From Caldilineaceae bacterium (lineage in GTDB: Bacteria > Chloroflexota > Anaerolineae > Caldilineales > Caldilineaceae): 64,000 bases of DNA. The stretch lies in contig JAJDTL010000018.1 in NCBI GenBank assembly GCA_022827195.1, positions 124,001-188,000 on the forward strand. The letters are read 5' to 3'. The position numbers and the translations under genes were made by a program. Position 1 is the stretch's first letter. Every line of letters begins with the position of its first letter. Below, piece by piece: positions 5,476 through 29,258 of this stretch. The notes beneath the pieces were generated by a model. The model made no database searches. It saw only the letters and a program-made list of their open reading frames with translations, and was not told the DNA's origin.

Positions 5476-7293
5476 TCAGCCGCTTTCAATCGCGGCGCGC
5501 ACCTGCTGCGCGGACCTGATGCGCGCCATGTCGAACTTCGCCGAGCGGTCGAAGCGGTAGATTCCGTTCTGCTCCTGGTAGATGTCGGTCAATTGCGTAT
5601 AGCAATAGCCAAAGTGGGCGGGGTCGTCGAGCAGAACGGCGCACAGCCGCGTGAACCGCTGGTAGAACTCCTCGATCGAGCGCGGGCGTTCGCCGTAGCC
5701 CCATGAGTATTCCTCCTCTCCTGCATCCGGATTCCACCAGATGCCGCCGAACTCGCTGACGAAGAAGGGCTGGCCACGGTAAGGCATCGACCACGGTTGC
5801 CCATCCCGTCCGTTGAAGTGTGGACGGCCGCCGCCGGTGCCGGCGTGGTTCGAGGCGAAGGTATCGACGTCCTGCGTATAGTCGTGGCAGTCGTAGACGT
5901 CCGCTTCGGGCACACGGTGGGAATAGCCGGACGTATCCAGCACAGGACGGGTCAGGTCCATCGCCTTGGTGGCCAGGAACAGGCCGCGCGTGACCGCGTC
6001 GAGGGTCGTGATGCGGTCGTGCAGCGGTTGCCAGGTCTCGTTCAGCGGACACCAGCCGATGATCGAAGGGTGCGAATAGTCCCGCTCCAGCACCTCCAGC
6101 CATTCGGTGATGTAGGAGGCTGTGGGCTGCTGATGCGTTTCCTGCGGCCCGTAGGCGCGGCAACCCCAGTCGCCGAATTCCCCCCAGAGCAGGTAACCGA
6201 GACGGTCGGCGTGATAGAGGAAGCGCTCTTCGAAGACCTTTTGGTGTAGCCGGGCACCATTGAATCCGGCGTCGATGCTCAACTCTATGTCGCGTCTCAG
6301 TGCTTCGTCGCTCGGCGCGGTCATGATGCCGTCCGGGTAGTAGCCCTGGTCGAGCACGAGCCGCTGGAAGACCGGGTCACCGTTGAGTGTGATTGCCTTT
6401 CCATCGATCGCGACGCTGCGCAGACCGGCGTAGCTGCGGGCCTCGTCGAGGGTTGTACCGTCCCCGTCCACCAGGCGCAGGATGACATCGTACAGATGCG
6501 GGTCCTCGGGCGACCACAGCCTTCGTCGCTCTGCGCGGACCGCCAGGTCAAGGTTCAGGCCAAGGTCGAGCTCGGCGGAACACGACGCTTCGCTGACAAG
6601 GCCGGCGGCATCGAGCAGTTGTGCGTGCAGCTTGAGCCCCTTTCTGCTGACAGGTTTCGCCTGCTCTGCTACGCCCGGTCGATGAACGAGCGGCTGTTCA
6701 AGCCGGAAGACGCCATTGGCTGTGTCGGGTGTAAGGCGAGGACGGCCAAGATGTATGTCGGGAACGGGCTCCATCCAAACGCTCTGCCAGATGCCGGTCG
6801 TGCGCAGGTAGATGGCGCCGCGCGGGGCGTACGTCTGGGCCTGTTTGCCACGCGGCTGGGGATCGCGGTGGCTGTCGCGGGCGCGTACGACAATGTCAGT
6901 GCGATCGCCGGGCGCGGCCGCGCCGCTCAGGTCACAGGTGAACGGGCTGAAACCGCCCCTGTGCCGGCCGACCTCCTGCCCGTTGACCCAGACCGTGGCG
7001 TCATAGTCGACGGCCTGGAAGTGCAGCAGAAGGCGCCGTCCCGCCCAGCTGCTGGGAATCTCAACCTGGCGGCGATACCATACGGCCTCCAGGAAGTCGT
7101 TGTTCCCTACGCCTGAGAGCTGCGACTCCGGGCAGAAGGGCACTGTGATGCTGCCGACGAGCGGGCGTTCCAGCAGCCCGCGTTCCAGGCCGCTGTCGCC
7201 CTGGTCGATTTCAAACTCCCACTCGCCGTTGAGACAGAGCCAGTCAGAGCGGACGAACTGCGGCCGCGGGTACTCGGGTCGCGGGATCGACAT
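5476..7293 (-). CDS. Glycoside hydrolase family 2 protein (beta-galactosidase/beta-glucuronidase type)
   Basis: A 605-residue retaining glycosidase with the GH2 order: N-terminal sugar-binding jelly roll (about 1-170, with NGEWEFEIDQGD and VDYDATVWVNGQEVGRHRGGFSPF), an immunoglobulin-like domain (about 180-290), and a catalytic TIM barrel. The acid/base is Glu419 in PLNETW and the nucleophile Glu514 in VSEFGG. I chose the ATG at 7293 because GGAGG lies six bases upstream. The frame is open further upstream but that stretch has no domain content and would run into the neighbouring gene. No signal peptide is seen, so it is probably cytoplasmic. The dehydrogenase upstream on the same strand ends 38 bases before, suggesting co-transcription in sugar breakdown. 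Confidence 0.9.
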   Translation of the reverse strand: MSIPRPEYPRPQFVRSDWLCLNGEWEFEIDQGDSGLERGLLERPLVGSITVPFCPESQLSGVGNNDFLEAVWYRRQVEIPSSWAGRRLLLHFQAVDYDATVWVNGQEVGRHRGGFSPFTCDLSGAAAPGDRTDIVVRARDSHRDPQPRGKQAQTYAPRGAIYLRTTGIWQSVWMEPVPDIHLGRPRLTPDTANGVFRLEQPLVHRPGVAEQAKPVSRKGLKLHAQLLDAAGLVSEASCSAELDLGLNLDLAVRAERRRLWSPEDPHLYDVILRLVDGDGTTLDEARSYAGLRSVAIDGKAITLNGDPVFQRLVLDQGYYPDGIMTAPSDEALRRDIELSIDAGFNGARLHQKVFEERFLYHADRLGYLLWGEFGDWGCRAYGPQETHQQPTASYITEWLEVLERDYSHPSIIGWCPLNETWQPLHDRITTLDAVTRGLFLATKAMDLTRPVLDTSGYSHRVPEADVYDCHDYTQDVDTFASNHAGTGGGRPHFNGRDGQPWSMPYRGQPFFVSEFGGIWWNPDAGEEEYSWGYGERPRSIEEFYQRFTRLCAVLLDDPAHFGYCYTQLTDIYQEQNGIYRFDRSAKFDMARIRSAQQVRAAIESG

Positions 7294-15213: not shown

Positions 15214-15283
15214 TTTCATTCCTCCGTGAGCGGGCCGGCTATCGCGATTGGCGTCTTTTCCGAGATCCGGCCTTTTGTTTCAC

Positions 15284-15312
15284 TTGATCTGTACCGCGGT
15301 GCCGACTAGAAT
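15284..15312 (+). promoter_or_regulatory. Candidate promoter for the NUDIX gene
   Basis: TTGATC (15284-15289), a 17-base spacer and TAGAAT (15307-15312) make a good sigma-70-type match on the plus strand. It would give a leader of about 215 bases before the start codon at 15537. Confidence 0.45.
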
Positions 15313-15332
15313 AGTTTGCATTGCTCAATCCA

Positions 15333-15361
15333 ATCGTACAAACGGCACGGCCCTATCCCAA
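15333..15361 (-). promoter_or_regulatory. Candidate promoter for the 2-hydroxyacid dehydrogenase
   Basis: On the minus strand TTGGGA (15361-15356), a 17-base spacer and TACGAT (15338-15333) lie about 115 bases before the start codon. It sits just downstream of the opposing NUDIX promoter, so transcripts from the two would overlap. Confidence 0.35.
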
Positions 15362-15536
15362 CCGCAATAATAATTTCGTATAGAAATTGAAAGAATTTTG
15401 ATCCGCGCCTTCGCGGGAATCAGATCCGTCCGGGGCTCGTTGGTCCCATGAGTCCGCGTCTGCGAACACGTGCAGGCGGCGAAAGTCATGGGGCGCCCTA
15501 CCCGGCAAGCCAGCTCCAATCTCACAGGGTGAACCC

Positions 15537-16292
15537 ATGAACATTCTGCCGCACGCCGTCAACCGCTTCAACGGGATCGAAATCAATACCGATGAACTGC
15601 CCTATGATGCCGCAGTCTTTGAGCAGGACCTTTCCGCCTCGCTGGTCAAATGGGTCCAGGATGCGCGCTTCCTGGTCTGGCTGCATCTGCCCATTGAACG
15701 GGCTGCGCTTGTCCCGATCGCGACTGCGGCCGGATTTGTTTTTCACCACACCGAGCCCAATTATTTGCTGCTTGTACGCAAACTGCAGGAAGACACCCTG
15801 GTCCCCGGATACGCCACCCACTACATTGGCGCCGGAGGCGTCGTCATCAACGACCGGCGCGAGCTGCTGGTCGTTTCCGAGCGGCACCGCGGTTCGGCGC
15901 GTCCCTACTACAAGCTGCCAGGAGGCGCGCTCCATCCCGGCGAACACCTGGCGACGGCGGTAATCCGCGAGGTCTACGAAGAGACCGGGGTCGAGACCGA
16001 GTTCGAGGCCGTCGTCTGCTGGCGCCACTGGCACGGCTACCGCTACGGCAAGTCGGACATCTACTTCATCTGCCGTCTATCGCCGTTGACGGAAAGGATC
16101 GAGCGCGACGACTGGGAGATCGACGAGTGCCTGTGGATGCCGGTTGACGAGTACCTGCAGCACGAGCTTGTAGGTGATTTCAACCGGGCCATCGTCGAGG
16201 CCGCCATCAAGACGCCCGGCCTCAAAAACCTGTGGATGGACGGATACGACGACCCAACCAAGCGGGAGTTCTACTGGCCTGATTCCGAATAG
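15537..16292 (+). CDS. NUDIX hydrolase with N-terminal pre-NUDIX domain (NUDT6-like)
   Basis: A 251-residue NUDIX protein that would hydrolyse a nucleoside-diphosphate-linked compound with a divalent metal. The NUDIX box is complete: GALHPGE, seven residues, then REVYEETGV (about residues 124-146). The first 80 residues form a separate domain (FNGIEINTDELP, LVKWVQDARFLVWLHLP, FVFHHTEPNYLLL) that matches the pre-NUDIX domain of eukaryotic NUDT6 and plant homologues. The ATG follows AGGGTG. The gene stands alone, between a divergent dehydrogenase and a decayed gene. Confidence 0.88.
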   Translation: MNILPHAVNRFNGIEINTDELPYDAAVFEQDLSASLVKWVQDARFLVWLHLPIERAALVPIATAAGFVFHHTEPNYLLLVRKLQEDTLVPGYATHYIGAGGVVINDRRELLVVSERHRGSARPYYKLPGGALHPGEHLATAVIREVYEETGVETEFEAVVCWRHWHGYRYGKSDIYFICRLSPLTERIERDDWEIDECLWMPVDEYLQHELVGDFNRAIVEAAIKTPGLKNLWMDGYDDPTKREFYWPDSE

Positions 16293-20026: not shown

Positions 20027-20986
20027 ATGACCCGCTCCTATCCAACCCAGCTCGCGTTCCCCTTCTCACACAATCGCGGCCCCGGCGCGAGACCTTTCCT
20101 CAAGTGGGCGGGCGGCAAGGGCCAACTTCTGGACCAGATTGGAAGACATTTGCCCGCGGAACTTAGAGAAGGCCGCATAACCAAGTACGCCGAACCCTTT
20201 ATCGGCGGCGGCGCGGTCTTCTTCTCGATCGCCAACCGGTTCGGCGTGCGCGAACGCTTCATCTCCGACATGAACGAGGACCTTATCCTGGCCTACCGTA
20301 CGATTCAGCAGCAGGTCGAGGCGCTGATCGATCGCCTGGACGGGATCCAGCGCCAATACTACGGACTGATGCCGGGCGGGCAGAAACAGTTCTACTATGA
20401 GGTTAGGGAGACATTCAATCAAGGGCGCGGCGCGAGCGCGGGAAACGTGTGGCGCCGCGACGCGTCCCTGCACGTAGCCCGTCTCATCTTTTTGAACCGG
20501 ACCTGTTTTAACGGGCTATACCGGGTCAATTCGCGCGGCGACTTCAACGTGCCGTTCGGCAACTACCGCAAGCCGAGAATCTGCGACGCGCCCAACTTGC
20601 GCTCAGTATCGCATTCGTTTCAGAAAGCCGAGATTCACTTCGGCGATTTCACCGCCTGTAAGGGATTTGTCGACGAGACCACCTTCGTCTACCTGGACCC
20701 TCCCTACCGCCCGATCAGTCGCACCGCCAGTTTCAATTCCTATTACAAGAATCCATTCGACGACGCGGAACAACGCCGTCTGGCCGGCTTCTACCACGAG
20801 CTGGGCAGCGCCGGCGCCAGGCTTATGCTGAGCAATTCTGACCCGCACAATGAGGATCCGCAGGACATGTTTTTCGAAGAACTCTATTCCGGGTTCAGTA
20901 TCCACAGAGTGGTCGCGAGCCGTCGGATCAACAGCAATGCCGCAAAACGGGGTCCAGTCACGGAGCTGTTGATTACGAACTATTGA
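20027..20986 (+). CDS. Dam-family DNA adenine methylase
   Basis: A 319-residue N6-adenine methyltransferase of the alpha class. The S-adenosylmethionine motif is FLKWAGGKGQLLDQI (about residues 24-38) and the catalytic motif is DPPY at 224-227. Between them lies RVNSRGDFNVPFGNYRKP, which closely matches the target-recognition region of E. coli Dam and DpnII-type enzymes, so GATC is the likely target. No restriction endonuclease gene is adjacent, which suggests an orphan regulatory or protective methylase. The ATG has no clear Shine-Dalgarno site but a good promoter about 40 bases upstream. The MNT/HEPN pair follows 87 bases later on the same strand. Confidence 0.9.
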   Translation: MTRSYPTQLAFPFSHNRGPGARPFLKWAGGKGQLLDQIGRHLPAELREGRITKYAEPFIGGGAVFFSIANRFGVRERFISDMNEDLILAYRTIQQQVEALIDRLDGIQRQYYGLMPGGQKQFYYEVRETFNQGRGASAGNVWRRDASLHVARLIFLNRTCFNGLYRVNSRGDFNVPFGNYRKPRICDAPNLRSVSHSFQKAEIHFGDFTACKGFVDETTFVYLDPPYRPISRTASFNSYYKNPFDDAEQRRLAGFYHELGSAGARLMLSNSDPHNEDPQDMFFEELYSGFSIHRVVASRRINSNAAKRGPVTELLITNY

Positions 20987-21073: not shown

Positions 21074-21391
21074 GTGAAGGCACGCATTGACATTCCGTCA
21101 GCAAGGATCGCCGCGTTCTGCCAGCGCAACCAGATCGTGCGTCTGGCGCTGTTCGGTTCGGTGCTGCGGGACGACTTTACGCCCGAGAGCGACGTGGACG
21201 TCCTGGTAGATTTTGCACCGGAGGCAAGCGTCGGCTACTTCGCGCTCGGAAGAATGGAAGCTGAGTTAGAACGCATCCTGGGGCGGAAGGCGGATATTCA
21301 CACTTTTGCAGGCGTCGAGAGGAGTCCCAACTGGTTGCTTAGGGAAGAGATTCTTGGATCAGCGGAGGCTGTGTATGACCAAACGGGATGA
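21074..21391 (+). CDS. MntA-type nucleotidyltransferase antitoxin (MNT domain)
   Basis: A 105-residue minimal nucleotidyltransferase. The signature FGSVLRDDF followed by SDVDVLVDF supplies the Gly-Ser pair (28-29) and metal-binding Asp residues (40 and 42, with a further Asp at 46). In the HEPN/MNT (type VII) toxin-antitoxin systems studied, the MNT protein neutralises its HEPN partner by adding AMP to a Tyr. Its stop overlaps the start of the HEPN gene by 17 bases, the usual coupled arrangement, which makes this assignment firm. AGGAGG precedes the start. It follows the adenine methylase. Confidence 0.88.
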   Translation: MKARIDIPSARIAAFCQRNQIVRLALFGSVLRDDFTPESDVDVLVDFAPEASVGYFALGRMEAELERILGRKADIHTFAGVERSPNWLLREEILGSAEAVYDQTG

Positions 21392-21746
21392 TCGGGTCAG
21401 TTTAGTAGACATGCTGGTCTATTTCGAGGAAGCAGTCGAACTGCTGGGGGAGGCGAGCGCAATCGATCTGGCGGATGATAGATTGTTGCAGCTCGCCCTC
21501 GAGAGGCTGGTTGGAATCGTCGGAGAAGCAGCCAGTAGAGTTTCGCCAGCTACGCAGCAACGGCATCCAGAAATCCCATGGGCGCAGATCATTGGCATGC
21601 GGAACCGGGTGGTTCACGGCTACGACGCAATTGTTTTGAGCAGAATGTGGGACACCGTTAGGTATGAAATGCCCCCATTGGTCGAGCAACTGGTTGCGAT
21701 CGTGGGCAGAGACCCGGGCCGGTCCGTTCAAGGCGACGGGCCATAG
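21375..21746 (+). CDS. HepT-type HEPN domain toxin (DUF86)
   Basis: A 123-residue HEPN-domain protein, probably an RNase toxin. The catalytic and modification motif RxxxxHxY is seen as R76-N-R-V-V-H81-G-Y83, with Tyr83 as the expected AMPylation site. The start at 21375 overlaps the antitoxin gene by 17 bases and begins MTKRDDR. A longer in-frame extension upstream would lie wholly inside the MNT gene and has no family similarity. It is convergent with the DUF2085 gene, six bases away. Confidence 0.88.
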   Translation: MTKRDDRVSLVDMLVYFEEAVELLGEASAIDLADDRLLQLALERLVGIVGEAASRVSPATQQRHPEIPWAQIIGMRNRVVHGYDAIVLSRMWDTVRYEMPPLVEQLVAIVGRDPGRSVQGDGP

Positions 21747-22700: not shown

Positions 22701-23297
22701 TCACTGTGGTGCGATCTGCTCGACGAATACGGTCAGCTGTTCAGCGGTAAGGAGGCCGGCCCAGCGGGCGTCGATCGTGCCGTCCACGTCGACGAAAACG
22801 GTCGTGGGCATGTTGCGCACGCCGTAGGCGCGGCCAATCGCGCCCTCCGCGTCGAGGATGACCGGCATCTTCATGCCGAACTCGGCGGCGAACGCCTCGA
22901 CAGCGTCCAGTTTTTCGCGCACGTTGACCTCGAGTACGACGACGGCCGGATTGTCATTGTGCAGTGCGACCAACTCCGGCATCTCGGCGCGGCACGGGCC
23001 GCACCAGGTTGCCCAAAAGTTGATAACGACCGGCCTTCCCTGCAAGGAGGCCAGGTCGGCGCCGCGGCCGTCGGCCAGGAAGAAGGCGAAGTTCGGCGCG
23101 GCGTCGCCCGCGGCGGTGTCGCCTTCTTCGACACGATCGGCAACGGGGAAGCCGGCGCCCAACCCCGCCGGGAACTCGTCGAGAGGGGTGGCGGTAAAGC
23201 CGTCGGGGGCAACCTCTTCGGACGCGTCGGGCACGCAAGCGGCGAGCGCCAGCGTAGCCAGGCCAGCGAAGAGCAGAAGGGCCAACCACTTCTTCAT
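22701..23297 (-). CDS. TlpA/ResA-like thioredoxin-fold lipoprotein
   Basis: A 198-residue extracytoplasmic thiol-disulfide oxidoreductase. The N-terminus is a lipoprotein signal with lipobox L-A-A-C, Cys21 being the lipid anchor. The redoxin domain carries WCGPC in FWATWCGPCRAEMPEL, and the cis-Pro region MPTTVFVD. Such proteins reduce apocytochrome Cys pairs or other exported thiols and are recharged by CcdA-type membrane proteins, which is exactly its upstream neighbour. The ATG at 23297 has AAGGA seven bases upstream and a GTG six codons earlier overlaps the previous gene. Confidence 0.9.
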   Translation of the reverse strand: MKKWLALLLFAGLATLALAACVPDASEEVAPDGFTATPLDEFPAGLGAGFPVADRVEEGDTAAGDAAPNFAFFLADGRGADLASLQGRPVVINFWATWCGPCRAEMPELVALHNDNPAVVVLEVNVREKLDAVEAFAAEFGMKMPVILDAEGAIGRAYGVRNMPTTVFVDVDGTIDARWAGLLTAEQLTVFVEQIAPQ

Positions 23298-23315
23298 TTC
23301 AGATTCCTTGCACAC

Positions 23316-24245
23316 TCAGTTCCGGACGCCCGAGAGCGCCGCGCCGCTCAGGTAGCCGATATAGGCCGGGATGAGCGGCAAAACGCAAGGGCTGATGAAA
23401 CTGATGATCCCGGCGACGAACGAAAGGGGTGCCGCGCTCAGGGCGCCGCTGTCGAAGGCGGCGCCAACTTCAACCGACTGCGAGACGCTGTCCTCCAAGA
23501 GGAAGACCCATTGATTCAGGAACGCAAACTGCGATGCCAACATGGTAAGCTGGTCGCTCCAGAGCAACCAGGCCACATAGAGAAGAAAGGCGCCGCTGAC
23601 GACGCTGACAATGTTGGCATGGCGATTAAGGCGGCGGAGAACGAGGGTCGCCCTGCTGAAGGCGGCCCCGGTAATCAGAAAGGGCAGGCCGAGCCCCAAG
23701 CTGTAGATTGCAAGCAGCAAGGCGCCCTGGCCGGCAGTGGCGCTGTCGCTGGCCAGGAAGAGGATGCTTGCCAGGATTGGACCGACACAGGGCACCCAGC
23801 CGGCGCTGAAGCTGACGCCCATCAGCGCGCTGCTAAGATAGCCCCAGCCGCGCTTCACCTTGTGAAGTTCGGTCACCCGGCGCTCAGTATACATCAGCGC
23901 GTTGAGAAAGCTCAGAATATCCACCAGCGCGGCAACGGCCGGATTGGCGGCCAGCCTCGCGTTGGCCTGGACGCGTCTGACGACCCATCCCAGGACTCCG
24001 AGAGTGGTCAGCCCAAAGATGAGAAGAAGCAGAGCTCCAACCCGCTGAATGAATGGCAGGTATTCGTTCAGGTTCTGCCCGATCAGCCCTGCGGCAGAGC
24101 CCAACAGGGTGAAGATTGCGCCGAATCCCAACACGAAGGCCAGCGAATGGAAGAACGTGCTGCTGCGACTAACCGGCGCCGCCTGAACTGTGGCGCCTTG
24201 CGTGCTGGCCTGTACGTTTCCTGCGCTGCCGATATTCTGTACCAT
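23316..24245 (-). CDS. CcdA/DsbD-beta-type thiol transporter with rearranged (apparently circularly permuted) helices
   Basis: A 309-residue membrane protein that would carry reducing power from the cytoplasm to TlpA across the membrane. It has six hydrophobic segments and exactly two Cys: Cys153 in GWVPCVGPILASIL and Cys287 in ISPCVLPLIPAYIGYLSG, the redox pair of the CcdA family. The order is unusual. In known CcdA proteins the SPCVLPL helix is the first segment and the GWTPCIGP helix the fourth. Here the chain starts with the segment normally second (SLAFVLGFGAIFTLLG, about 34-50), and the SPCVLPL helix is last (about 275-300). No such helix is encoded upstream in the frame, where a TGA occurs 17 codons before the ATG. 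No strong ribosome site is visible. It lies between ccmD and tlpA. Confidence 0.85.
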   Translation of the reverse strand: MVQNIGSAGNVQASTQGATVQAAPVSRSSTFFHSLAFVLGFGAIFTLLGSAAGLIGQNLNEYLPFIQRVGALLLLIFGLTTLGVLGWVVRRVQANARLAANPAVAALVDILSFLNALMYTERRVTELHKVKRGWGYLSSALMGVSFSAGWVPCVGPILASILFLASDSATAGQGALLLAIYSLGLGLPFLITGAAFSRATLVLRRLNRHANIVSVVSGAFLLYVAWLLWSDQLTMLASQFAFLNQWVFLLEDSVSQSVEVGAAFDSGALSAAPLSFVAGIISFISPCVLPLIPAYIGYLSGAALSGVRN

Positions 24246-24354
24246 GTTTCGATCTCGCCATCTACGATTTGCGCGAACCCTACCCTCTGCCGGTCACGCC
24301 TCAAGCCGGTGGAACAATAATACGGGTAGCCATTCGGTCATGAAGTAAACATGC

Positions 24355-24513
24355 TTACGAAGATCGGGAATCTTCGCGCGCGCTCTCTTCCTCCCACTGC
24401 CGACGTAAACTCGTCAAGGTCCTTTCCAGCGCCCGCTGGCGGTTCAGCAAGAAGAGCAGGTAGCCGCCGACCAGCAGCCAGAGCAGGATCATTACGGACG
24501 CCAGATAGATCAT
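24355..24513 (-). CDS. ccmD: CcmD-like small membrane protein
   Basis: A 52-residue protein. It begins MIYLASVMILLWLLV, giving one transmembrane helix (about 2-23), then a basic, charged tail (NRQRALERTLTSL) and an acidic Arg-rich end. This is the form of CcmD, the small subunit that helps release heme-loaded CcmE from CcmC. Its ATG at 24513 overlaps the ccmC stop in an ATGA, so translation is probably coupled. The position right after ccmABC is the conserved one. CcmD has little sequence conservation, so the call rests on size, topology and place. Confidence 0.75.
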   Translation of the reverse strand: MIYLASVMILLWLLVGGYLLFLLNRQRALERTLTSLRRQWEEESAREDSRSS

Positions 24514-25256
24514 TCGTCTCTCTCCATTTGCAGCTGCTCGATGCGCGCCTCCAGCGCAAGCTGGCGTACTCGGTGAAACAGCAGCGCCAAGAACAGGATT
24601 GCGAAGGCAATCATCGAAACGGTCAGAGCCTGTCCCATTGTCGCGCCGAGGGCAAAATCTCCCTGCGACTCCTGATTGGAGCCGGCGACGATCACCGGAT
24701 GAATCGAACGAAACAGGCGGGCACTGTAAAAAGTGAGCGGCACGCTCAGGAAGGCGAACAGCGCGTAGATGCTGGAGAAGAGGGCACGGGTCGCGGGATT
24801 CTCAAAACCGTTGCGGAACAGCATGTAGGCGACGTAGATCAGCACCGTGATTGCAGCGGTCGTCAATCTTGGATCCCAAGTCCAGTAGGTGTTCCAGGCC
24901 GGCTTCGCCCATATCGAACCCGACAGCAGCACGAAGAAGCCGAATATCGTGCCGATTTCGACGCTTGCCGCAGCCCAATGGTCAAAAACCAGCCGGCGGG
25001 TGAGCAGGTATCCGGCGCTGCCGGCAACCGAGCCCAGAAAGCCCAGGAGAGCGGCGATATTGCTGCCGATATGGAAATAGAAGATGCGCTGCGCGACCTG
25101 CTCTACGCCGGCGAGATTGACGGCGTCGCCAGCGTATATGAGCCCGGCCCAAATCGCCAGGGCCATCGTCAGCGCAGCGAGAACATCGAGGATCAGGAGC
25201 GGCCATAAGGGCGCGTCCGACCGCCTGGAATTTGGAAGAGTGCTCAGAGTGCTCAA
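24510..25256 (-). CDS. ccmC: Heme exporter/heme-CcmE transfer protein CcmC
   Basis: A 248-residue membrane protein of the heme-handling family that loads heme onto CcmE. The tryptophan-rich WWD segment is WAKPAWNTYWTWDPRLT (about residues 117-133), and the flanking heme-axial His residues are in FYFHIGSN and RSIHPVI. Six transmembrane segments are seen. The start appears to be TTG at 25256 with AAAGG upstream, since the next in-frame ATG lies inside the first helix. It follows ccmB by 21 bases and overlaps ccmD. Confidence 0.9.
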   Translation of the reverse strand: MSTLSTLPNSRRSDAPLWPLLILDVLAALTMALAIWAGLIYAGDAVNLAGVEQVAQRIFYFHIGSNIAALLGFLGSVAGSAGYLLTRRLVFDHWAAASVEIGTIFGFFVLLSGSIWAKPAWNTYWTWDPRLTTAAITVLIYVAYMLFRNGFENPATRALFSSIYALFAFLSVPLTFYSARLFRSIHPVIVAGSNQESQGDFALGATMGQALTVSMIAFAILFLALLFHRVRQLALEARIEQLQMERDE

Positions 25257-25277: not shown

Positions 25278-26003
25278 TCAGCCCTGCTCCCAGATCAGAT
25301 CGAAGAGCAGGAGCGCAATGGCAAGGAACAGTGCATCGTAGAGCGCCAGGACGACCAACCAGCGCCATACCTCACCGTCTGGCCGGGCGTCGAGCACGAC
25401 CGCGGTCAGGCTGACGCCGGCGATGAAGAGCGGCGCCAGCACGGGCAGGAGCAGGACCGGCAGCAGCGCCTCCCGCGCCCGGCTGCGGACGGTGAGCGCT
25501 GCGAATAGTGTGCCGACGATGGCGTAGCCGAGCGTGCCCAAGAAGAGCCCCAACAGTATGATGGGCCGCGCCAGGTTGACATCGAACAGGATGAGCAACG
25601 TCGGCGCAAGCAGCGCTTCAACAATCAGGAAATAGAGCAGATTGGCGGCGACTTTGCCAAAATAGATCGCCGATCGCTCTACGGGGGCCAGCAACAGTCC
25701 GGTCAGAGTGCCTCTGTCGGTCTCCGATCCGAAGGAACGCTGCAAGCCGAGAATGCCCGTAAAGAGTACGATGACCCACAGTATTCCCGGCACGACAAGC
25801 TCTGCACGGGGCACGCGCAGATCAAATGCCAGGCCGAAGATAACTGCGGCCAGAACGGCAAAGGCGGCCATCGTTATCACGATTTCGCCGGCGCGCAACT
25901 CCGTGCGCACTTCCCTTTCCGCTACAGCCAGGACCCTGCGCAAATAGGCGGCAAACCCGCTCTTCCTCTTGGAGACTGCGCCGCCCCCCGTAAGCTCATC
26001 CAT
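25278..26003 (-). CDS. ccmB: Heme exporter ABC permease CcmB
   Basis: A 241-residue permease of the CcmAB ABC complex. It has about six transmembrane segments and family features FGLAFDLR, LWVIVLFTGILGLQRSFGSE and DRGTLTGLLLAPVERSAIYFGK, the region that contacts CcmA. CcmAB uses ATP to release heme from the CcmC-CcmE complex. It lies 48 bases after ccmA on the same strand. The ATG-GAC start gives a 30-residue cytoplasmic N-terminus, a usual length. Confidence 0.92.
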   Translation of the reverse strand: MDELTGGGAVSKRKSGFAAYLRRVLAVAEREVRTELRAGEIVITMAAFAVLAAVIFGLAFDLRVPRAELVVPGILWVIVLFTGILGLQRSFGSETDRGTLTGLLLAPVERSAIYFGKVAANLLYFLIVEALLAPTLLILFDVNLARPIILLGLFLGTLGYAIVGTLFAALTVRSRAREALLPVLLLPVLAPLFIAGVSLTAVVLDARPDGEVWRWLVVLALYDALFLAIALLLFDLIWEQG

Positions 26004-26051: not shown

Positions 26052-26735
26052 TTATCTCCATGACTCACTACGTTCCGAATCCGTGATTGGGTGCAGCCGG
26101 CCGTCGCGCAGTTCGCAAATCCGGTCGGACCAAGTCGCAGCAAGGCTCCGGTCGTGGGTCGACAACATAACGGCCCGCTCGCCGCGGCGGAACTCCGCCA
26201 ACAGCCCGGACAGTATGGTCAGGCTTTCGCCGTCCAACCCGCTATCCGGCTCGTCGAAGATCAGGACGGGCGGGTCGTGCAGGATTGAGCGGGCGATGGC
26301 GAGACGCTGGAGCATGCCACGGCTGAACGTGCGGACGGGCTCATCGCGCCGCGGCCAAAGTGCGAATGCGCGTAGGAGGCGGTTGATGCGGTCCTCCGGC
26401 GCATTCAGGTCGTACATACGGGCGAAGAATCGGAGGTTCTCTGCCGCGGTGAGGCTATCGTAGAGTAGGGGCGCGTGCGCGACCACGCCGATGTAGTGGC
26501 GGATCACGTGGCGTGCGGCTGAGAGAGGCACGGGACCCAGCCACACTTCGCCGGCATCCGATCTTTCCAACCCGGCGACGATACGCAGGAGCGTCGTCTT
26601 TCCCGACCCGTTGGCGCCAAGGAGCGAAAAAATCTCTCCGGCGCGAACGGAGAGGCTGATGTCGCGCAGGACGCGCTTGCCGCCGAAGCGCTTCGCAACC
26701 TTGTCGCAGCGGATCAGGGAATTCGCGCCGGTCAC
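26052..26735 (-). CDS. ccmA: Heme exporter ABC ATP-binding protein CcmA
   Basis: A 227-residue ABC ATPase. Walker A is GANGSGKTT (about residues 35-43), the signature is FSRGMLQRLAIAR rather than strict LSGGQ, which is common in CcmA, and Walker B is VLIFDEPDSGLD with the D-loop. The switch His is in LSTHD. It pairs with CcmB to power heme release. Its start overlaps the stop of the upstream diheme cytochrome gene by four bases (ATGA), so the two are translationally coupled. Confidence 0.92.
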   Translation of the reverse strand: MTGANSLIRCDKVAKRFGGKRVLRDISLSVRAGEIFSLLGANGSGKTTLLRIVAGLERSDAGEVWLGPVPLSAARHVIRHYIGVVAHAPLLYDSLTAAENLRFFARMYDLNAPEDRINRLLRAFALWPRRDEPVRTFSRGMLQRLAIARSILHDPPVLIFDEPDSGLDGESLTILSGLLAEFRRGERAVMLSTHDRSLAATWSDRICELRDGRLHPITDSERSESWR

Positions 26736-28624
26736 TGGGGAGGCTCCATGTCCTGCGCTGCCCGGGCTACGGCGAGCAGTTCCCGCTTGAGCTCCGCTCT
26801 TCTTTGTTGCCAGGCGCGTTCGTCCAGTTCGTCCAACGAGCGGAGATCGTCCATTCGGGCGATCTTCTCGATCAACGCCATGCGTTGGGCTGCCAGCTCT
26901 TCACCCGTCGGCGCGCGCCCGGCCCGCGCGCGGCGAATGAGCAGGAGAGTCGCCGCCAGCAGAACCATGGCGACGACACTGCCAAATCCAATCGGTATGC
27001 GGGGGTCCAGCGGCGGCCGTGCCACCGGCAAGGACCGGTTCATCTGTGTCTCTCCACCGGGGCGAGGATCGCGACCGCCGGCCGCAATCAGCCCGCCCAG
27101 TTCGACCTGGACCGGCGCGCCAGCGGGCAGTGTCGCGCTCCAGCGTCGGAAAAGGACACCTTGTATCGTGTCCTGACCTGTCGACGCGCCCGAGCTGCCA
27201 CCAAGCGAGACCGCCACTTCGAGATTGGGGAGGTCGGCCACCAGCAGGTTCAGCAGCTCGATGTCGTAAGTGACGGGAAAGGCGATCGCTGCCGAGCTTC
27301 CAGTGTATGGCAGATGAAAGCGGGCAAAGACTTGGCGCGATGTCTCGCCCGGCGGAACGGGGCGCGTGTCATAGATGACATCACCTTTCCGCCGGTAAGC
27401 ACTGCCGACTTCTCCGTCCTGCAAGTCGACTTCTTCCGCGTTCGGCGGCAGCGGAATCGCCAGCGTAACGGGGCTGTCGACGCCACTGATCGAGGTGCCG
27501 ACGAAGGTCCGGTCGCTGCGGTTTGCGAAACTGTACACCTGCCCGATCAGCAGCGAGCCGGGCTCGTGCTCAATGATCCAGTTGGCGCGGCTGACGAGGA
27601 GGCCGGCCGCATCGGTCGTCTTCTCGTAGACGGCGAGCGATGTACTGATAAGATCGGGAGCGACCCTGCCTTCGGTAAATTCCGGTCCGCTGAAGGCGAG
27701 GATTGGCGAGGTGTAACGAATGTCGAGGTACTCGGTCTCGACCAGGTAGTAGAAGCCCGCATCCACCGGCAGGTCTTCGAAGCGGAAGTTGCCTTCAGCG
27801 TCGATTGAGGCGGCGCGCGTCGACATCAGCTCGGTCTGTTGATAGATGTTGAGCTGAACTTCGCTTTGGGGCGGCGGCGGTCCATCTGCCGTACCTTGCA
27901 GAAGCTGGCCCGCGACCGAGCCCGGCCCGGTCAGGGATAGGGGCGCCCACTGCGGCAAGTAGGTGAATGTGCGGATGTACTCGAGCGCGGCCCTGCGTTC
28001 TTCCTCCGACCATCCGGCGCCGGCGTCGGGGTGTGCGACTTGCCACCTCTGCGCGAGGTCAGCATTGCTGACAAAGATCATCGACGACTGCGAAGAGAAA
28101 TCAGGCATCTGCTCGTCCGCGCTGGGGCCGTTCCCTCCGCCGTTTTCGCCGTGGCAGGCGGCGCAGGACTGGGCATAGAGATCGGCGCCGATTGCAATCT
28201 TCGTTTCGGTTGCCTGCAGATTCCAGGCATAGTAGACCGCCTGCCAGATCTGCTCGTCATCCAGGCTGTTGCGCCAAGGCGGCATCAGGTTTTCAATGCG
28301 GCCGAACTTGGTGACGAAGAATAGCTCGGCGGGGGACCGCTCCCATACCGAGTGGGGATCGGAAAACACGGTCGGCTCCATGGTTGCGCCCGCCTGCGCG
28401 GGCCCGTCGCCGTCGCCGCTGATTCCGTGGCAAGGCGCGCAGTTCTGCGCGTAGAGCTCGGCGCCAAGCGCGGCAACCGGAAGGCGTTCAGGAATTTGAA
28501 CTTGCTGTGGGTCGTAGGGCGGGGAAGGTTCTTGCGCCAGGGCTATTCCGGTCGTCAGAGTCACCAGTAGTGCCGCGATGCAGGCCGCTCGAATCCGCGC
28601 GTAACTGAACCATTTGGCACGCAA
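26732..28624 (-). CDS. Membrane-anchored diheme c-type cytochrome with beta-sandwich region
   Basis: A 630-residue exported protein. A signal peptide ends near residue 30 (TGIALAQ). Two class I cytochrome c domains follow: CAPCH at 62-66 with a possible Met ligand in LMPPW, and CAACH at 154-158. Residues about 215-530 look like beta-sandwich modules, the first similar to carboxypeptidase regulatory domains (NFRFEDLPVDAGFYYLVE). A transmembrane helix lies at about 548-567, then a charged helical cytoplasmic tail of 60 residues. It is a likely client of the adjacent Ccm machinery and may pass electrons at the outer face of the membrane. The last four bases overlap ccmA, so the link is more than proximity. 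The electron partner is unknown. Confidence 0.88.
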   Translation of the reverse strand: MRAKWFSYARIRAACIAALLVTLTTGIALAQEPSPPYDPQQVQIPERLPVAALGAELYAQNCAPCHGISGDGDGPAQAGATMEPTVFSDPHSVWERSPAELFFVTKFGRIENLMPPWRNSLDDEQIWQAVYYAWNLQATETKIAIGADLYAQSCAACHGENGGGNGPSADEQMPDFSSQSSMIFVSNADLAQRWQVAHPDAGAGWSEEERRAALEYIRTFTYLPQWAPLSLTGPGSVAGQLLQGTADGPPPPQSEVQLNIYQQTELMSTRAASIDAEGNFRFEDLPVDAGFYYLVETEYLDIRYTSPILAFSGPEFTEGRVAPDLISTSLAVYEKTTDAAGLLVSRANWIIEHEPGSLLIGQVYSFANRSDRTFVGTSISGVDSPVTLAIPLPPNAEEVDLQDGEVGSAYRRKGDVIYDTRPVPPGETSRQVFARFHLPYTGSSAAIAFPVTYDIELLNLLVADLPNLEVAVSLGGSSGASTGQDTIQGVLFRRWSATLPAGAPVQVELGGLIAAGGRDPRPGGETQMNRSLPVARPPLDPRIPIGFGSVVAMVLLAATLLLIRRARAGRAPTGEELAAQRMALIEKIARMDDLRSLDELDERAWQQRRAELKRELLAVARAAQDMEPPQ

Positions 28625-28745: not shown

Positions 28746-29258
28746 TCAGGGTGCCGACTGGCGCAAGATTGCTTGCGGGTCTTCCTCGTAGCGGCTAGGG
28801 CACTTGAGCAGGAGTACGTCTGCCCTAAAGGTGCCGTCGTCCAGAAGCTCCCCTTCCACGATGACTGAGGCCGCCCGTTGGAAGTTGTCGGGCCGGGGCT
28901 CGTAAAAGACGACAGGCAACTGATGGCCTGGGTTCTCTTCATCTTCGATCATGAACTTCAGCGTCACTTGCTCGGCGTTCCAGAGTTCGCTGCCATCGAC
29001 CACGACTCCGTTCACGCGCAGACGCTGTGAAACGAGGGCATTGCCCTGCTGCATCACCTCGTCAACTGTGAGCCAGTAGGCCTTGGCGGTCGTCAGGCCG
29101 TAGACCATCAACGCCAGGATGACCCCGACGAGGATGAGCCCGGCCACCAGGAACTGCGGCCTGAGGCCCGACTTCCTGCGCGCCAGGCTGGCCGGGATCG
29201 GCCCTTCCCACAGACCGTCGTGGTCCAAACTGTCTTGAACAGACGAAGCGGTTGTCAT
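28746..29258 (-). CDS. ccmE: Cytochrome c maturation heme chaperone CcmE (Cys-type)
   Basis: A 170-residue membrane-anchored heme chaperone. One transmembrane helix (about 36-56) is followed by the CcmE beta-barrel (RLRVNGVVVDGS, VTLKFMIEDEE, LPVVFYEPRPDNF, ASVIVEGEL). In E. coli-type CcmE the heme-binding motif is HxxxY. Here the position reads C153-P-S-R-Y157, so Cys replaces the His. A CxxxY form is known from some archaeal and sulfate-reducer CcmE proteins. It begins the ccm gene series on this strand, 121 bases before the cytochrome gene. CcmF, CcmH and CcmI are not in the window. Confidence 0.88.
   Translation of the reverse strand: MTTASSVQDSLDHDGLWEGPIPASLARRKSGLRPQFLVAGLILVGVILALMVYGLTTAKAYWLTVDEVMQQGNALVSQRLRVNGVVVDGSELWNAEQVTLKFMIEDEENPGHQLPVVFYEPRPDNFQRAASVIVEGELLDDGTFRADVLLLKCPSRYEEDPQAILRQSAP

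Follow-up and report, generated by a model that had tools for sequence, protein, structure and literature searches.

In canonical CcdA, a membrane thiol-disulfide electron transporter, helices 1 to 6 follow one another along a chain whose two ends are both periplasmic, and the two halves of the protein are inverted repeats. Few circular permutations of helical membrane proteins have been described from nature. The closest case links VKOR and DsbB, both of them families of thiol oxidoreductases built from membrane helices; its authors call it the first for polytopic helical proteins, give identities of 12.0-13.6%, propose duplication and deletion as the route and leave undecided which order came first (PMC4555120). 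Their 2015 survey found no natural permutation of a helical membrane protein besides VKOR/DsbB (PMC4555120). A later case is the cpCone clade of the lipocone superfamily, seven families in which a single event, possibly through a duplicated intermediate, is reported to have carried the first helix of a four-helix domain to its end; the ancestral form inferred for this domain is hydrophobic (PMC12419801). Here we report on a ccdA gene of a Caldilineaceae bacterium (Chloroflexota; assembly GCA_022827195.1), found in a stretch of 64,000 nucleotides of contig JAJDTL010000018.1 (positions 124,001 to 188,000; hereafter the window). Its product is very probably a naturally circularly permuted CcdA. 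With only slightly less confidence we propose that CcdA has been permuted repeatedly in nature at two cytoplasmic loops, between helices 1 and 2 (loop 1/2) and between helices 3 and 4 (loop 3/4), and that permutations arose independently in at least Chloroflexota, DPANN archaea and Alphaproteobacteria. A preliminary description of the locus had already read the gene as permuted and knew of no described permuted CcdA; in the open-access PMC literature, judged by titles and abstract starts, we found no permuted CcdA or DsbD described, and that statement stands uncontradicted.

The gene and its parts are laid out in the window as follows:

23316..24245, minus strand: permuted ccdA, 309 amino acids, helix order 2-3-4-5-6-1 (open reading frame with ATG start; Pfam, own profile and 5VKV match)
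23541..24167, minus strand: helices 2 to 6 of canonical CcdA, residues about 27-235, with redox Cys153 in helix 4 (codon 23787-23789; phmmer blocks, profile stretch 43-234)
23427..23540, minus strand: new linker from helix 6 to helix 1, residues 236-273, predicted periplasmic (charge count)
23340..23426, minus strand: canonical helix 1, here last, residues 274-302, SPCVLPL with Cys287 (codon 23385-23387; phmmer block, profile 10-43)

The permuted reading is carried by the order of the Pfam stretches, by our own profile with its rotation scan and by three blocks of similarity to a solved structure. Pfam family PF02683 (DsbD_TM) matches the protein in three stretches (E 1.5e-17, 64 bits, curated cut-off 27.1), and in the search of its own genome the profile positions come in the gene order 36-102, 108-216 and then 6-35, the start of the profile being last. 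This gene is the sole CcdA above the Pfam cut-off in that genome; the other PF02683 match, on a different contig, scores 14.8 bits and lies under the cut-off. The protein has only two cysteines, Cys153 in WVPCVGP and Cys287 in SPCVLPL, which correspond to the helix 4 motif GWxPCxGP and the helix 1 motif SPCxLP of the family and are the pair singled out in the preliminary description. The family's helix order, 1-2-3-4-5-6, is not the order of this protein, and the plus-strand reading of 23316-24245 holds none of the CcdA motifs. Searched with phmmer against the sequences of solved structures, the protein found 5VKV alone up to E 10 (E 1.2e-23), which we take to be Thermus CcdA, and the blocks again stand in permuted order: residues 274-302 match chain positions 7-35, residues 27-85 match 36-94 and residues 137-242 match 111-212.

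Our own profile was built from 40 CcdA proteins of canonical order, and rotations of the window protein were tried every three residues. In its native order the protein gives one stretch over profile positions 43-234 (166.9 bits, residues 20-242) and another over 10-43 (47.3 bits, residues 274-307). Rotation at about residue 247 fuses both into a single stretch of 212.9 bits, compared with 166.9 natively, and the rotations reaching 212.9 bits start at about residues 235-277, around the linker that precedes the last helix; aligning the rotated sequence to a CcdA profile, a check suggested at the outset, thus came out in favour of the permutation. We call proteins cut in loop 1/2 type A and those cut in loop 3/4, with the order 4-5-6-1-2-3, type B. 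When nine other permuted proteins were scanned, four of five of type A behaved like the window protein, and four of type B gave one stretch once rotated to start just before helix 1. By segment identities and the rotation scan, the protein and its relatives carry homologous segments in cyclically shifted order, as a circular permutation requires. On sequence grounds it is CcdA by descent, classed as a permuted variant and not as canonical CcdA. The stop-to-stop frame (325 amino acids) is only 16 amino acids longer than the open reading frame, and therefore no helix 1 is hidden upstream. The order of six helices given earlier held up, with one correction: a seventh hydrophobic 19-mer at residues 100-118 (window 23892-23948, mean Kyte-Doolittle 1.52) lies in loop 3/4 with basic residues on both flanks. 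It is probably amphipathic and may form an in-plane helix (predicted helix 102-123).

The arrangement is conserved among relatives. The protein's own genome and its relatives gave a match in 38 of 41 genomes, and in the window's family (genomes G000-G024 in our numbering) a near full-length match in permuted order was present in 25 of 25, with helix 1 at the C-terminus of the same open reading frame throughout. Identity to the window protein is 60-92% for the best family hits and 58% for a second copy in G021. All 73 permuted proteins of an alignment retain Cys153, Cys287 and the flanking Pro and Gly, which is partly by construction, the rows having been picked by their Cys motifs.

Permuted order is not unique to the window gene; it is widespread in Chloroflexota and in DPANN archaea. 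In a sample of 400 genomes of the window's phylum, 345 had a match; among the matches listed, at least 28 genomes carry a stretch that starts at or before helix 4 and goes on to take in helix 1, and loci from 19 of these show the permuted order in one open reading frame, while thirteen other loci are canonical. A DNA pattern scan for a helix 4 motif ahead of a helix 1 motif, covering 84,980 species with a single genome apiece, gave at least 119 loci. Of those listed, 118 of 119 have both motifs in one open reading frame in permuted order, which is not a frequency since the pattern selects that order; 109 of the proteins were new once copies were removed, and the sole exception (locus L111) has its motifs split over two frames. 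The pattern demands Trp-Thr at helix 4, so that the window's family (Trp-Val) falls outside the scan. By record name the listed loci belong mainly to Chloroflexota (Anaerolineae, Dehalococcoidia and others) and DPANN archaea; Nitrospira and Neomegalonema also occur, as do single bins carrying the names Thaumarchaeota, Bacteroidetes and Clostridiales, bin names being no proof of origin.

Among the 118 loci, the chain is cut in loop 1/2 in 113 and in loop 3/4 in five, and never in the periplasmic loop 2/3; the pattern would take a protein cut in loop 5/6 for canonical. Between 5 and 38 residues follow the helix 1 Cys in the 113 loci and 96-108 in the five, with none in between, where a loop 2/3 cut would fall. 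The type B loci are L062, L089, L099, L124 and L126 from the scan, together with L047:1222-2013 (G341), whose helix 1 motif is SPCCLP. Two further loci are less clear, L215 lacking the joint motif and L177 being a weak Pfam hit. One bin named Bacteroidetes (L228, G440) holds two permuted ccdA genes about 14 kb apart on one contig, at about 909-1733 and 15236-16057. Four type A proteins (L026, L028, L107, L171) carry a long hydrophobic stretch inserted between helix 3 and helix 4, with four to six hydrophobic 19-mers within 200 amino acids upstream of helix 4, which may add membrane segments.

Because canonical CcdA has both ends outside, joining them would place the linker outside, and the new ends are expected in a cytoplasmic loop; a cytoplasmic-loop cut is what all 118 one-frame loci listed display. 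Loop charges agree with this expectation. We counted lysine and arginine (K+R) in 157 type A and 40 canonical proteins, in loops 3/4, 4/5 and 5/6, after helix 1, and in the linker or C-terminal tail. Per 10 residues, type A and canonical proteins have 1.71 and 1.69 in loop 3/4, 2.60 and 2.22 in loop 5/6, 1.28 and 1.33 after helix 1, and 0.13 and 0.56 in loop 4/5; the new linker has 0.33, compared with 0.43 for the canonical C-terminal tail. The window's own linker, taken as 41 residues (about 232-272), has no K+R and four acidic residues (D+E). Both ends of permuted CcdA are thus predicted to be cytoplasmic and the linker periplasmic, and the preliminary description's topological argument, that a cut in the cytoplasmic loop 1/2 lets every helix keep its direction, is borne out by the loop charges.

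To compare proteins of different order, helix 1, helices 2-3 and helices 4-6 were aligned separately and joined in canonical order, giving 203 distinct proteins (157 type A, 40 canonical, six type B). For a tree of 54 rows we dropped rows with more than 55 gap columns or more than 60% identical within their group, keeping 20 named rows regardless. DPANN permuted and canonical rows fall together on one side (support 96/98), two Neomegalonema rows group with six canonical alphaproteobacterial rows (100/97), their place among these being weakly supported, and type B, with four representatives, forms one clade (98/90). The tree needs at least 10 changes among canonical, type A and type B order. 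Forcing all 32 type A rows into one clade lowers the log-likelihood by 259.8 (approximately unbiased test, p-AU 2.2e-74), so that one origin for all of type A is strongly rejected.

Both groups in which permuted and canonical proteins meet were also searched directly. A Woesearchaeal permuted query matched in 86 of 279 genomes of its phylum; among the matches listed, at least 28 genomes have a full-length permuted match (43-100% identity), and in at least 23, G626 being counted in both sets, the match ends after helix 6 (45-62% identity), with canonical order in twelve loci from 11 of these 23. A Neomegalonema query matched in 202 of 299 genomes of its phylum, and among those listed permuted order occurred in its own genome only, the others matching at 57-58% over helices 2-6. 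A separate tree for DPANN had 53 rows, omitted permuted rows more than 85% identical and took eight canonical rows from other groups as its root; in it, 33 permuted rows form a clade (94/79) within a grade of 12 canonical rows, and the permuted rows and the canonical copies of G626 and G530 make a group at 99/91. The permuted clade is nested in a canonical grade, and therefore the change ran from canonical to permuted in DPANN archaea. Over the trimmed 231-column joined alignment, the best permuted-canonical identity is 64.3% (DPANN), with helix 1 at 59-70% in the 14 best pairs; the best identity to a canonical protein is 58.6% for Neomegalonema and 47.8% for the window protein. It seems that permuted order arose several separate times, in bacterial and archaeal lineages. 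The most likely genetic route would be tandem duplication and fusion, then loss of the outer parts. Near the permuted gene of several DPANN loci (L065, L073, L116, L153 and L164, with parts in L105 and L193), within a few kb, lies a second, divergent CcdA-like open reading frame of canonical order, scoring 50-58 bits against the canonical profile.

In the window the permuted gene stands downstream of ccm genes and of a gene for a protein with two cytochrome c domains, and upstream of one for a TlpA-like thioredoxin:

22701..23315, minus strand: TlpA/ResA/CcmG-like thioredoxin-fold protein (WCGPC), directly downstream of ccdA (Pfam Redoxin 7.1e-23, AhpC-TSA 9.4e-23)
24355..24513, minus strand: 52-residue open reading frame in the ccmD position, named by position only (no Pfam match)
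24510..25256, minus strand: ccmC-like gene (Cytochrom_C_asm, PF01578 4.7e-21)
25278..26003, minus strand: ccmB (PF03379 8.6e-28)
26052..26735, minus strand: ABC ATPase in the ccmA position (PF00005 6e-30)
26732..28624, minus strand: protein with two cytochrome c domains (PF13442 2.1e-22, two stretches)
28746..29258, minus strand: ccmE (PF03100 1.6e-23)

The TlpA-like protein is the probable electron acceptor of the window CcdA, and the maturation system may have the cytochrome c protein as a client; among the window neighbours checked, none was identified as CcmF. Beyond this cluster, overlapping genes for a nucleotidyltransferase and a HepT-like protein (21074-21746) resemble MNT-HEPN toxin-antitoxin pairs, and 20027-20986 holds a gene for a D12-class adenine DNA methyltransferase. 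On the plus strand, a 453-residue open frame (22959-24320) runs antisense to tlpA and ccdA and is probably a by-product of GC-rich coding sequence.

Elsewhere the gene context was judged by a motif count, in which the loci are not independent and seven of 157 type A and four of 40 canonical rows were left out for lack of flank. An open reading frame of thioredoxin type (WCxxC) lay within about 1.9 kb on the same strand in 51 of 150 type A loci (18 of them from the window's family) and on the other strand in four of 150; canonical loci gave eight and none of 36, type B none and none of six. In the archaeal genome G626, a permuted and a canonical ccdA lie about 4.5 kb apart (L209:2033-2782 and L209:7327-8037), the permuted copy between two thioredoxin-like proteins and the canonical copy followed by a thioredoxin-DUF3179 protein; at L068 a permuted gene is followed by both of the partner types that G626 splits between its copies. 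In these DPANN loci a TlpA-like thioredoxin domain fused to DUF3179 adjoins ccdA (L209:8047-9483, L068:4196-5704), and DUF3179 may be part of a thiol pathway. SoxV is a CcdA-type protein expected near soxY, and in Neomegalonema perideroedes (L128) SoxY (Pfam; L128:4609-5175) is encoded upstream of the permuted ccdA and a gene with a TusA-like motif (motif only; 6362-6610) downstream, pointing to a role in sulfur oxidation. The TusA-like motif was not found as a shared gene order with canonical alphaproteobacteria, in 14 canonical loci with short flanks.

We infer that the simplest reading is the ordinary CcdA reaction. The chain would have been opened in the cytoplasmic loop 1/2, making helix 1 last and both ends cytoplasmic, and the old periplasmic ends would be connected through a linker with few positive charges. 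All helices would keep their direction, so that Cys153 in helix 4 and Cys287 in helix 1 would still form a redox pair; a cytoplasmic thioredoxin would reduce this pair, which would in turn reduce a TlpA-like partner outside, for cytochrome c maturation. Helix 1 of the window protein would then pack as in canonical CcdA. Judged by its redox cysteines, charge pattern and gene neighbourhood, the protein looks like a thiol-disulfide electron transporter of the ordinary kind whose two ends lie in the cytoplasm, and its function is likely to be unchanged by the permutation.

Several results weigh against this account. Summed HMMER scores do not gain on rotation (Pfam 64.0 native, 63.2 rotated; own profile 166.9 + 47.3 native, 214.3 rotated), because a sum ignores order, and only the single-stretch score rises. 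The Neomegalonema protein (L128, type A) gained nothing on rotation in its best single stretch (213.4 bits; summed 260.0), probably owing to upstream residues left after trimming. An AlphaFold2 model of the window protein from 73 permuted sequences reached a predicted local distance difference test score (pLDDT) of 80.9 and a predicted template modelling score of 0.73, that of type B being poor (pLDDT 62.3, six sequences). The top Foldseek match in the PDB, 5VKV, is modest with this sequence-order aligner (E 0.061, probability 1.00, template modelling score 0.57 by target), and VIA-align, with 5VKV again on top (Z 7.4, root-mean-square deviation 4.8, 188 aligned), placed model residues 27-256 on chain 36-224, that is helices 2-6, leaving out helix 1 because the aligner follows sequence order. 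These structural scores may lie within the chance range for helical bundles and by themselves are no proof of fold. A same-strand thioredoxin-motif neighbour was absent in 99 of 150 type A and six of six type B loci, many with short flanks. As to origins, one clade of the 23 Chloroflexota-type rows is rejected weakly (p 0.039), and a single origin within Chloroflexota is thus only weakly rejected; two rows (L056, L140) had been removed by hand before this test, after the tree was seen, their records saying 'bacterium' with a Chloroflexota label by default and their place being near alphaproteobacterial rows (99/89, 100/84). Finally, among 228 loci read in six frames, the majority of which had been selected for carrying a permuted gene, there was no fusion intermediate or lost-helix remnant in the form of an open reading frame with two helix 1 or two helix 4 matches.

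How far these points favour another explanation differs from case to case. The window genome is assembled in 54 contigs, and an assembly or gene-calling artefact could in principle shuffle a gene; yet the order is kept in one frame in all 25 family genomes, three of them single-contig assemblies (G004, G011, G015), and in 118 of 119 listed pattern loci, including the isolate Neomegalonema perideroedes DSM 15528 and the complete genome of Leptolinea sp. HRD-7 (L112), leaving an artefact next to no probability. The rearranged assembly that the preliminary description had named as fatal to its reading is thereby excluded, and its other proviso, a separate helix 1 gene, finds no counterpart: the own genome has no further Pfam match above cut-off, and the C-terminal helix is always in the same frame. 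A third proviso, that the order might prove common among relatives, turned out half true, the order being widespread in Chloroflexota and DPANN archaea; the permutation stands all the same, as canonical-order relatives adjoin the permuted proteins in the trees. The inverted-repeat halves of CcdA make it conceivable that the C-terminal helix was copied from helix 4, or that it is unrelated and bears the motif by chance, but it aligns to profile positions 10-43 at 47.3 bits and to residues 7-35 of 5VKV, and in the closest DPANN pairs this helix is up to 70% identical to canonical helix 1; we regard either alternative as a negligible prospect.

An ancestral permuted order, or one origin followed by gene transfer, has somewhat more to say for itself. 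A Nitrospira protein (L133) sits inside a Chloroflexota permuted clade (97/89), as transfer would give, the Chloroflexota test reaches only p 0.039 with two rows removed post hoc, and the 54-row tree has 19 weak branches, drawn open, among its 51 inner ones and takes two changes for the DPANN permuted rows. The cost of one type A clade and the minimum of 10 order changes nevertheless oppose a single origin, as do the nesting of DPANN permuted proteins in a canonical grade and the grouping of Neomegalonema with canonical alphaproteobacterial rows, and an ancestral permuted order would require repeated reversals, so that we consider this explanation very unlikely. A protein that is CcdA by descent could also have taken up another task, with a different partner or with a transport cycle altered by the linker holding helix 1 near helix 6, and the differing thioredoxin-like neighbours of the two G626 copies leave room for a division of labour. 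Against a changed task stand the invariance of both Cys motifs in the aligned set, the position of the window gene, as sole CcdA above the cut-off in its genome, in a ccm/tlpA cluster, the Neomegalonema gene near soxY, where SoxV would be expected, and the L068 gene with both G626 partner types. We judge a new task unlikely, though less so than the other alternatives, and retain the reading of a repeatedly permuted CcdA of probably ordinary function.

Each permutation would have turned an N-out/C-out protein into an N-in/C-in one, suggesting interchangeable helices, each inserting and packing as a unit, and a preference for cytoplasmic ends through selection or easier insertion. Permuted and canonical proteins exist at up to 64% identity, even within one genome (G626), and DPANN archaea show which way the change went. 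Such natural pairs make several questions testable: the role of helix order in insertion, an N-out as against an N-in start, and the transport cycle with helix 1 tethered to helix 6. There is also a warning for annotation, as profile searches blind to order label permuted proteins as ordinary CcdA/DsbD.

Compared with canonical CcdA (5VKV, PF02683), the window protein matches all six helices by sequence, has both Cys motifs and shows similar loop charges; it differs in having helix 1 last, both ends predicted cytoplasmic and a new periplasmic linker between helices 6 and 1. With VKOR/DsbB it shares a permutation among helical membrane thiol oxidoreductases but the CcdA permutation differs in lying within one family, at up to 64% identity, in being repeated and in being polarised in DPANN archaea. 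From cpCone, CcdA differs by several events in one family, two cut sites and no intermediate seen. What is new here, the repeated origin and a second cut site within a known family, would be surprising to specialists.
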